The notes under the pieces were generated by a model. It was not told the origin of the DNA. It saw nothing but the letters and a program-made list of their open reading frames with translations, and did no database searches. Made by a program: the position numbers and the translations under genes. From Sandaracinaceae bacterium (lineage in GTDB: Bacteria; Myxococcota_A; Polyangia; Polyangiales; Sandaracinaceae), in assembly GCA_019694315.1 (NCBI GenBank), contig JAIBCE010000024.1, positions 1 to 43,279 of the forward strand: 43,279 bases of DNA. The letters run 5' to 3'. Positions 32,425-42,507 of this stretch are shown here, piece after piece (positions within the stretch are counted from its first letter, which is position 1; the number at the start of each line of letters is the position of its first letter).

Positions 32425-32516
32425 GGCTTCCTCTCGAGTGACGAGACACTGGGAGCGCAGATCGCAGGGCGGCGCAGAGTACCGAGCGGGCGCGAGTCGT
32501 CCTTTCGGGGCGCCTT

Positions 32517-32635
32517 GCGGCGGGGTCTGCGAAGCAGACCCCTGGAGCAGCGAGGATGGAGGAGCGCAGCGACGAAGGACGAGCAGGGGGGAATGGGGGG
32601 AGTTGCCGACTCCCCCCGACGCGCGCGAAGCGCGC
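32517..32635. repeat. dispersed triple-hairpin element, copy 1
   Basis: Three perfect hairpins in a row. H1: 9-bp stem (32522-32530 with 32534-32542), loop GAA. H2: 9-bp stem (32595-32603 with 32609-32617), loop TGCCG. H3: 6-bp stem (32621-32626 with 32630-32635), loop GAA. A linker at 32581-32594 (GAGCAGGGGGGAAT) leads into H2. H3 ends two bases before the zwf stop codon (TAG at 32640-32638, leftward). A second copy at 42361-42468 has the same plan with different stem bases. Confidence 0.85.
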
Positions 32636-32637
32636 AG

Positions 32638-34044
32638 CTAACAGGGCGTGTTCCAGCCGCCGACCGCGTGCGTGAGCTCGTCGGCCTCCTTGGGGCCCCA
32701 GCTGCCGGGCTCGTACTCGTAGAGCGCGCTCGGGCCGTGCAGCACGGGATCGACGATCGCCCAGGCGGCCTCGACGATGTCGGTGCGCGCGAAGAGCGTG
32801 GCGTCTCCGGCCATCGCGTCACCGAGGAGGCGCTCGTAGTCGCCGAGGCGCACACCTTGTCCCGGCGCCTCGGCCACCTCGCCGAGGGTGAGCTCCACGG
32901 GCCTGCCGTTCATGCCCTCGCCGGGCTTCTTCACGCGGGTGCCCAGGGCGATCTGCACCTGAGGGCTGAGGCGGAATCGGATGTAGTTGCCCATCGACGG
33001 CGCGGGCTCGTTGAAGACGACCTGCGGTGGATTCTTGAACTCCACCATCACCTCGGTCGTGGTGGTCGCGAGGCTCTTGCCCGCGCGCACGTAGAAGGGC
33101 ACGCCCTCCCAACGCCACGAGTCCACGTAGAGGCGCAGCGCCGCGTACGTGGCCATGTACGAGTCCTTGGCCACGTCGGGCTCGTCGCGGTAGCCGCGGA
33201 ATTGGCCCCTCACCATGTGATCGGGGCTGAGCGGTCGGATCGTGCGGAGGACCTTGGCCTGCTCGTCGCGGATCGCCTCGGGGATCGTCGAGCTCGGGGC
33301 CTCCATGGCCAGATAGCTGACCACCTGGAGGAGGTGATTCTGGATGACGTCGCGGATGACGCCGGTCTCCTCGTAGAACTTGCCGCGACCCTTCACGCCG
33401 AAGCTCTCGGCCATGGTGATCTGCACGTTCTCCACGTAGTGCCGGTTCATGATCGGCTCGAGAAACGCATTCGCGAACCGGAAATAGAGGATGTTCTGGA
33501 CGGCCTCCTTGCCGAGGTAGTGGTCGATCCGGAACACCGAGTCCTCGCGGAACACGGTGTGGATGATCGCGTCGAGCTTGCGCGCCGACTCGAGATCTCG
33601 CCCGAACGGCTTCTCCACGATGACGCGGGCGTTGCTCGCGCAGCCCGAGCGACCCAGGCTCTCGATCACGGGGCCGAACATGCTGGGTGGAATGGCCAGG
33701 TAGTGAGCGGGACGCTGGCACTCGCCGAGCGCGGCCTTGAGGTGCTCGAAGGTGGCTGGGTCGTTGTAGTCACCGTCGACGTAGCGCATCTGGCGCGCGA
33801 GCTGCGCGAAGGCCGCCGGGTCGAGCACGCCCGCGTCGGTGCAGCTCGCCTGCGCACGCGCGATGAGCTTGGGGAGATCGAAGCCTGCGCGCGCGACGCC
33901 CACCACCGGGAAGTCGAGCTTGCCGCGCTTGGCCATGGCGTGGAGCGCCGGGAAGATCTTCTTGTAGGCGAGATCGCCCGTGGCGCCGAAGAACACGAGC
34001 GCGTCCGAGCGCTGTCGCGCGGTGGGCTGGACGAGGGCGCTCAC
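32638..34044 (-). CDS. zwf: glucose-6-phosphate 1-dehydrogenase
   Basis: A 468-residue enzyme that oxidises glucose-6-phosphate to 6-phosphogluconolactone with NADP, the first step of the oxidative pentose phosphate pathway. The nucleotide-binding block is [18 protein letters not shown] (about 17-34). The active-site segment is [14 protein letters not shown] (about 167-180), with [14 protein letters not shown] before it and [16 protein letters not shown] later. Length fits the family (about 450-510). The start is GTG 34044, overlapping the gnd stop by four bases (GTGA), with AGAAG upstream. Coupled translation with gnd is likely. A structured element follows at its 3' end. Confidence 0.96.
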
Positions 34045-41414: not shown

Positions 41415-42320
41415 ATGCTTCGAACCACCCGACACGCTCGTCACCTCCTCTCGACCGCTGGTGCGCTCCTCGTGCTCTCGTCGCTCGCCGCGTGCGGCGA
41501 CGACGGCTACCTGCCGCCCGTCTCGCGCAACGACGCCGCGATTCCGCCCGGAGTCGACGGTGGTCTCGGCGCGATCGACACGGGCATGTCGACCGGCCCC
41601 TCGGGCCTGCCGTGCGACGTGGCGATGGTGCTCTCGACGTATTGCTCGAGCTGCCACGGCTCGACCCCTGCGGGCGGCGCCTACAACTCGATGATGACGC
41701 GGGATCAGCTGCTCGCGAATTCCACCTCGCGGCCCGGCATGACGGTCCTCGACGTGGCGGTCGCGCGCATGATGGACGGCTCGATGCCGCCGGCCCCGGC
41801 CACGGTGCCCGCCGCCGACATCGCCACGATCTCCACGTGGCAGTCCGCGGGCGCGCCGGCGGGGAGCTGCGAGATGCCGACCGACCCGTTCGCGGGCCCC
41901 GACACCTGCACGAGCGGCACGATGTGGACCGGCGGCAACCGCGAGTCCGAGCTCATGCACCCGGGCCTCGCCTGCATCGACTGCCACACGTCGATGCGCG
42001 AGGGTCCGTACCTCTACGTGGCGGGCACCGTGTACGCGAGCGGTCGTGAGGTGCCCGACTGCAACGGCATCCGCAGCACGGGCGCCGATCCGGTGACGGT
42101 CGAGATCACCGACGCGACGGGCTACGTGCTCACGCTCTACCCCAACGCGGCGGGCAACTTCCTCGACGAGGACATCCCCCTCACCTTCCCGGTCTCTGCG
42201 CGGGTGCTCTACCAGGGCCGCGAGCGACGCATGGCGGCGCCGATCACCAACGGCGACTGCAACAGCTGCCACACGCTGCGCGGCGCCATGGGCGCGCCGG
42301 GCCGCATCGTGGTTCCGTGA
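41415..42320 (+). CDS. lipoprotein with three heme-c motifs
   Basis: A 301-residue protein from the ATG at 41415. The signal peptide ends in a lipobox (LSSLAAC, Cys 27), then an Asp/Gly-rich linker. Three CxxCH sites are seen: CSSCH (77-81), CIDCH (187-191) and CNSCH (282-286). After the first, GSMPPAPATVPAADIATIS at about 122-140 offers a Met-Pro-Pro pair typical of class I cytochrome c axial ligand loops. The middle segment (VTVEITDATGYVLTLYPNAA) is a beta domain of carboxypeptidase-regulatory type. The protein probably carries electrons or serves as a surface heme protein. It has no partner nearby; the DUF1592 protein also has a CxxCH but lies 29 kb away. Confidence 0.82.
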   Translation: MLRTTRHARHLLSTAGALLVLSSLAACGDDGYLPPVSRNDAAIPPGVDGGLGAIDTGMSTGPSGLPCDVAMVLSTYCSSCHGSTPAGGAYNSMMTRDQLLANSTSRPGMTVLDVAVARMMDGSMPPAPATVPAADIATISTWQSAGAPAGSCEMPTDPFAGPDTCTSGTMWTGGNRESELMHPGLACIDCHTSMREGPYLYVAGTVYASGREVPDCNGIRSTGADPVTVEITDATGYVLTLYPNAAGNFLDEDIPLTFPVSARVLYQGRERRMAAPITNGDCNSCHTLRGAMGAPGRIVVP

Positions 42321-42360
42321 GCTGAGAGAGGGAGAAAGAATCGCCCGGGGACGCCACGCG

Positions 42361-42468
42361 GCGGGGTTGCGCAGCAACCCCAGGAGCGCGCGAGAAAGCG
42401 AGGCTCGGGGAGCGTCGAGCAGGGGGGAATGGGGGGGAGTTGCTCCCCCCGACCGCGCCGAAGGCGCG
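42361..42468. repeat. dispersed triple-hairpin element, copy 2
   Basis: Same plan as the copy at 32517. H1: 8-bp stem (42363-42370 with 42374-42381), loop GCA. H2: 8-bp stem (42432-42439 with 42443-42450), loop TTG. H3: 6-bp stem (42454-42459 with 42463-42468), loop GAA. The linker GAGCAGGGGGGAAT is at 42417-42430. Stem bases differ from copy 1 in H1 and H3 but stay fully paired. It lies 40 bases after the triheme lipoprotein stop. Confidence 0.85.
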
Positions 42469-42507
42469 AAAATACTGAGTTGTGCTCTCGCGCCCTCCGC
42501 TGACGAG

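Follow-up and report, generated by a model that had tools for sequence, protein, structure and literature searches.

Hairpin-bearing miniature elements of two sister Sandaracinaceae genomes: probable spread by IS91-type rolling-circle transposition and frequent placement at stop codons

The current study describes two hairpin-rich segments, copy 1 and copy 2, in a window of 43,279 nucleotides (the whole stretch of DNA that was analysed) from a Sandaracinaceae bacterium. Both are non-autonomous mobile elements of a single genus-restricted superfamily, which is known from two sister genomes. The explanation we favor, and which we consider reasonably probable as a whole, is that these elements spread by IS91-type rolling-circle transposition with their hairpins as signals and CTGAG/TGA as their target, and that copy 1 is an old and conserved member. 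Presumably, the elements would be spread as single-stranded DNA (ssDNA) by an IS91-type Y2 HUH transposase acting in trans, with the GNA-capped hairpins H1-H3 acting on the ssDNA as signals for recognition or termination. The insertions would be aimed at a short CTGAG/TGA-like target, and therefore many surviving copies would lie on or just past stop codons, where they are harmless. Some copies of subfamilies A and D would have landed in frame within protein genes, to be translated through, while copy 1 would have resided in the zwf-ppgK spacer since before the species split.

Three serial hairpins can be read directly from the sequence of each copy, all on the forward strand. Copy 1 (32507-32635, forward strand) is a subfamily A element extending from GGGGCGCC to H3 within the zwf-ppgK spacer, without a CTGAG left end. 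Sequence and folding both identify its H1 (32522-32542, arms 32522-32530/32534-32542; 9 bp, loop GAA), H2 (32595-32617, arms 32595-32603/32609-32617; 9 bp, loop TGCCG), and H3 (32621-32635, arms 32621-32626/32630-32635; 6 bp, loop GAA), and the conserved linker GAGCAGGGGGGAATGGGGGG occupies 32581-32600 of the forward strand. The TAG stop codon of zwf (32638-32640, reverse strand) is located 2 nt from the right end. This gene encodes glucose-6-phosphate dehydrogenase, and the other neighbor is a ROK-type kinase gene that we read as ppgK from a Pfam ROK match of 22.6 bits, slightly below the cut-off. Copy 2 (42322-42479, forward strand) is a complete subfamily B element that includes both bordering CTGAG pentamers, and it is longer than originally predicted, running from the CTGAG at 42322-42326 to that at 42475-42479. 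Its left end CTGAGAGAGGGAGAAAGAATCG (42322-42343, forward strand) is common to an IS91-type element and to the C1, F, and G repeats. This is followed on the same strand by H1 (42363-42381, arms 42363-42370/42374-42381; 8 bp, loop GCA), the conserved linker (42417-42436), H2 (42432-42450, arms 42432-42439/42443-42450; 8 bp, loop TTG), and H3 (42454-42468, arms 42454-42459/42463-42468; 6 bp, loop GAA), with all three hairpins likewise identified from sequence and folding and the terminal CTGAG 6 nt beyond H3. Copy 2 is situated past a cytochrome-c-like gene (41472-42320), and a convergent gene lies on its other side. Two exact occurrences of the linker were found against an expectation of 0 (100 shuffles), and ssDNA folding with DNA parameters returns a centroid whose core is the three hairpins (z = -3.6 for copy 1 and -3.4 for copy 2). 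The original prediction of two three-hairpin clusters with an exact common linker is thereby confirmed, as is the observation that the H1 and H3 stems have changed on both arms and are still paired. Loop lengths of three or five nucleotides were also correctly noted, except that all six loops fit this description rather than five of six.

When examining the distribution of these elements, it is evident that they are numerous within the genus and scarce elsewhere. With copy 1 as the query against its own genome (8.67 Mb in 630 contigs), 45 matches were listed of 216 first-look candidates. The copy-2-type linker has 52 exact matches in this genome (26 per strand) versus 0 for the reversed control, and the H1-core pattern has 74 exact matches here and 106 in the sister species (the other genome of the same genus), again with 0 for the control. 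The element is consequently dispersed, as had been proposed, and by no means limited to two copies. In the family at large, eight further genomes were searched with a slightly longer pattern, which yielded a single match in each of three and 0 in five. Across a scan of 84,980 species, the A/D-type core was found only in the metagenome-assembled genome UWPOB_DELTA5, which apparently corresponds to the sister genome, and the exact subfamily B pattern had no match; in plasmid and phage collections, the element was not found at the sensitivity used. We analyzed 124 copies drawn from 1.9 Mb of sequence surrounding them, with element lengths of about 130-165 bp. Subfamily A includes copy 1 and is characterized by the same beginning and the same lack of a CTGAG left end. 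Subfamily B, which includes copy 2, is nearly confined to its own genome, where its copies have a median nearest-neighbor identity of 98%; judged from its sequences, it is an apparent recent burst. Subfamily D is found mainly in the sister genome, and the further classes consist of E and unclassified copies. Ten contigs of the own genome (C33, C60, C96, C143, C174, C221, C303, C305, C429, and C541) break inside or about 110 bp from copies or their ends, and the copy number in this genome is therefore probably underestimated. Separately, an extra module of about 55 bp (CCGGCGATCGGACACGCGCGCAGCTCACGAAGTGAGCGAGCACGGGAGAACCCGG) with its own GNA-loop hairpin is found at one fixed internal position in L130, L135, L137, L158, and L183.

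One of the key features of the superfamily is the maintenance of the H1 hairpin. Its stem exists in the versions TTGC/GCAA, GAGC/GCTC, TCTGC/GCAGA, TGAGC/GCTCA, TTTGC/GCAAA, and TCAGC/GCTGA, and among distinct variants pairing amounts to 98.3% and 96.7%. The corresponding covariation scores of 0.28 and 0.25 compare with 0.09 and 0.06 after shuffling; none of 500 shuffles scored as high, and slid controls fell far below the H1 score. The claim that the structure is maintained is thus upheld. We infer that this pairing is selected as ssDNA. The H1 loop is of the GNA type in 104 of 115 copies (GCA 86, GAA 13, GTA 4, and GGA 1), the late hairpins mostly have GAA or GGA loops, and the loop of the inserted module CTCACGAAGTGAG is again GNA, all in agreement with the mini-hairpin loops that had been pointed out from the two copies. 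In DNA, GNA loops closed by C-G are described as exceptionally stable (Yoshizawa 1997, as cited in PMC6479982). The covariation might conceivably have a purely mutational origin, if template switching repairs imperfect hairpins and thereby changes both arms without selection. Quasi-palindrome correction is a known mutational process, some copies do carry one-sided stem mismatches (e.g., GGGGGCTGC/GCAGACCCC), and of the three differences that separate copy 1 from its orthologue, two leave a stem base unpaired without compensation. However, arm correction fails to explain why the loop is GNA in those 104 H1 hairpins, in H3, and in the inserted module, and we consider the mutational explanation unlikely, albeit one to be taken seriously.

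The proposed mode of spread is based principally upon the element ends. The end motif CTSAGRGANNGAGAAANAATC, which copy 2 carries, has 103 occurrences in the own genome and 123 in that of the sister species. The left end of copy 2, CTGAGAGANNGAGAAANAATCG, matches the left end of a Y2-HUH element of the IS91 type found in the sister genome. This 2.6-kb element (L356, contig C4, reverse strand 3898-1283) was found by searching for long elements with this end. Its transposase contains Y2_Tnp (PF04986; 6.7e-58) and Zn_Tnp_IS91 (5e-31) domains together with the HUH motif HPHLH and the two-tyrosine motif YLGRY. A tyrosine recombinase gene is located directly upstream of the Y2 transposase gene, and the two Y2 copies of this contig stand in tandem, 2.8 kb apart. 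The first ~53 bp and last ~47 bp of L356, when joined, constitute the 95-bp CTGAG-bounded C1 repeat, both ends of which equal the ends of the IS91-type element; C1 units are arranged head-to-tail beside it with one CTGAG between units, and a single CTGAG joins the units of head-to-tail arrays. Elements of subfamily B and family F have the L356 left end and then a terminal GC hairpin and CTGAG, as in L356 itself, although for B the shared sequence is limited to the left ~21 bp, the right end being alike only in its general architecture of a GC hairpin leading to CTGAG. Subfamily A shows no trace of the IS91-type left end, and families D and G position the common end differently, adjoining CTCAG in D and at both ends in G. 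Insertion is orientation-specific at a short fixed target, as B ends at CTGAG and many D and A right ends lie at a stop codon. The sister genome has two Y2 genes, whereas the only one found in the own genome is degenerate with an internal stop, in a fragmented assembly that could lack a multi-copy IS. Members of the IS91 family begin transposition at the right end and insert at short targets; their transposition acts in trans and can stop at substitute left ends to create short one-ended products, as in 26% of IS801 events (PMC3189936); in the related Helitrons, a 3' hairpin serves as the terminator (PMC4778049). Such a one-ended mechanism operating in trans fits the tandem arrays, the orientation-specific insertion, and the left-truncated subfamily A. 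Based upon this IS91-type Y2 evidence, we infer a mechanism of the ssDNA/HUH type, which is the type originally suggested, and an IS91-type enzyme would be the one that moves both B and A elements.

Another explanation would be that these are conventional MITEs mobilized by a DDE transposase, which would recognize the inverted end next to CTGAG and duplicate a target of the form TNA or CTNAG. Family G, in which the end forms true inverted repeats at both sides, and the CTGAG on both sides of B would both be expected from such a system. In the target-site duplication test of B, the flanking CTGAG is nearly invariant, and among six copies with a different pentamer only one has agreeing sides. 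Terminal inverted repeats at both ends are absent from A and B and are found only in G, while the inverted end is one-sided in B, C1, F, and D, and arrays share one CTGAG. Furthermore, the contents of the long inward pairs of the inverted end were limited to tandem arrays, the IS91-type genes, or ORFs lacking Pfam matches; no long element enclosing DDE genes between such ends was found, and the one informative pair enclosed Y2 and integrase genes. We therefore regard DDE mobilization as improbable and retain the IS91-type reading, although DDE-type TIR/TSD transposition may apply to families D and G.

The placement of the copies is highly biased as well. Using a simple codon-usage gene caller (86% coding), 55 copies were assigned to convergent spacers, 47 to co-directional spacers, 3 to divergent spacers, and 7 to the inside of genes, whereas the expectation from intergenic bases is 21 convergent, 55 co-directional, and 28 divergent (convergent enrichment, p = 2e-13; divergent depletion, p = 4e-11). 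In 46 of 124 copies, the CTGAG/CTCAG at the element end contains the TGA stop codon of the neighboring gene. Among the 87 non-B copies this applies to 37, with the right end involved in virtually every case; among the 37 B copies it applies to 9, with the left end involved in most. In subfamily A, several intergenic copies, including copy 1, have their right ends a few bases from a stop. Away from the elements, these pentamers are found 849 times in coding regions, 242 times in intergenic regions, and 210 times as stops, so that CTGAG targeting together with the loss of harmful insertions would explain part of the stop-codon placement. In two clear cases (L123/L191, with a native CTGAG, and L137/L170), orthologues without the given insertion stop at the same codon, which indicates that the element joins an existing stop; on the same grounds, we rejected a reading in which D elements supply a stop codon of their own and thereby truncate genes. 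Relative to transcription, A and D are mostly antisense and B is mostly sense, and GC skew gave no significant signal of a replication-strand bias (p = 0.07).

That copies are strongly enriched past gene ends and in convergent spacers could also suggest RNA elements, i.e. transcription terminators or mRNA 3'-end stabilizers kept for regulation, particularly as the RNA folds are stable (z of -2.8 to -4.0). Despite this, the hairpins lack a following U-run, and inspection of the coding strand of the upstream genes revealed no intrinsic-terminator T-run after a GC hairpin. The subfamilies also differ in their strand relative to transcription, the copies inside genes have both orientations, the near-identical recent B copies are better suited to spread than to a long-kept function, and an Rfam scan of the window matched 0 families. 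A regulatory RNA origin is accordingly quite unlikely, and the earlier argument against a plain terminator holds, although individual copies may act as terminators or 3'-end stabilizers.

Mobilization as REP-type elements by a Y1 tyrosine transposase (RAYT), the assignment originally put forward, is very improbable. Y1 genes do exist in both genomes, and the copies resemble REPs in having hairpins of the GNA type, in lying outside genes on their 3' side, and in favoring convergent spacers (PMC3733652). However, none of the 17 Y1 loci (6 own and 11 sister; the Y1_Tnp profile gave 41 matches in the positive control) has a copy within about 1.5 kb, the hairpins have no GTAG or CGTC foot, and a RAYT-like sister gene has its own, different GTAG REPs. 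That gene (L320, 1371-2240) is located amid GTAG-tagged REPs (GGGTAGGGCGGGGGC...) and forms a REPtron unrelated to the studied element. In the own genome, the Y1 genes at L031, L032, and L035 are bordered by short GGTCAGAGC-type repeats that are not REPs, and they resemble TIR-associated Y1 genes. CTGAG-bounded repeats are also found ~350 bp or less from two of three short Y1 genes of the sister genome (L318 and L320), which may be due to chance.

Several insertions are located within conserved protein genes, where eight copies at seven sites continue the open reading frame. An ATP-dependent DNA ligase carries the insertion at an identical site in the two species. The other hosts are a DNA polymerase III alpha of the DnaE type, which we read as DnaE2, a DEAD helicase that has a MrfA Zn-binding domain, an OPT transporter, a SIR2 protein, a PLP enzyme resembling methionine-gamma-lyase, and one protein without a Pfam match. 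As judged from the open frames, these inserts are predicted to be translated. Since intergenic spacers are mostly unalignable between the two species, the coding insertions were used for empty-site tests, and empty orthologous sites were identified for five (SIR2, lyase, polymerase, helicase, and the protein without a Pfam match). Copy 2, for its part, is missing from the sister genome at the end of the orthologous gene. The in-frame inserts are likewise absent from homologues with solved structures: the lyase alignment skips about 48 residues, and ~75 residues of the polymerase are unaligned versus ~11 in its homologue. The element is inverted relative to the gene at four of the in-frame sites. 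Between the two ligase copies (L180 1791-2000 versus L128 9977-10180), there are differences in H1 length and stem and also a differing 30-bp stretch, and the frame is restored downstream, which suggests that the host frame is kept rather than the peptide.

Copy 1 is distinguished by its conservation. It is identical to its sister orthologue at 127 of 130 aligned positions, whereas the adjacent spacer retains 42 of 82 (51%) and the flanking genes about 82-84%. This orthologue is the nearest relative examined (97.6%), followed by the sister ligase copy (92.9%), while the best other match in the own genome reaches 84.9%. Because 2 of the 3 differences unpair a stem base, sequence may be kept here beyond pairing alone. 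The comparison suggests that copy 1 is either under constraint at this one site or contained in a very short tract that was recently transferred, and its conservation relative to the flanks indicates that it may have been domesticated. It is conceivable, although we would call this tentative and short of probable, that an HUH rolling-circle lineage evolved stop-codon targeting (CTGAG/TGA) as a safe harbor and seeded GNA-hairpin miniatures as ssDNA signals, one of which, copy 1, was domesticated at zwf-ppgK and now evolves much more slowly than the neighboring genes.

If these interpretations are correct, several implications would follow. The superfamily would join IS91-type rolling circles, in-frame palindromic repeats (best known from Rickettsia), and gene-end repeats, which are usually treated apart, and its stop-codon targeting would illustrate how a transposon can spare its host and yet attain a high copy number. 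It would likewise allow the in vivo function of the exceptionally stable GNA mini-hairpins of DNA to be tested in a natural setting, with copy 1 as a candidate domesticated element in central carbon metabolism.

The elements have parallels among several known systems. Like REP/BIME sequences with RAYT, the elements are high-copy hairpins downstream of genes, and GTAG REPs may supply stop codons too (PMC3733652), but those described here are 130-165 bp, have no GTAG/CGTC tag, and are located away from Y1 genes. MITEs such as Correia/NEMIS, ERIC, and RUP are similarly non-autonomous, and some MITEs have in-frame fusions (PMC2229807), whereas B has its inverted end on one side only. Rickettsia and other MITEs provide known cases of in-frame coding repeats (PMC2229807, PMC10969869), and the Rickettsia RPE, by description, are comparable in being ~105-150 bp, hairpin-forming, clade-restricted, and both intergenic and in frame within conserved genes (PMC2229807, PMC10969869). 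The present elements are distinct in that they are GC-rich, belong to a large genome, contain three hairpins in series where the RPE have a single long palindrome, exhibit a stop-codon preference, and have a plausible transposase identified. The IS91/IS801/ISCR group with its one-ended and miniature derivatives shares the Y2_Tnp and Zn_Tnp_IS91 domains, a YxxxY motif, asymmetric ends with GC hairpins, a short target adjoining the end, and short derivatives (PMC3189936). In contrast to that family, the target here is CTGAG, which is often a stop codon, a tyrosine recombinase gene is adjacent, and there are tens of near-identical miniatures, some of them in tandem, as well as short elements with three GNA-capped hairpins.
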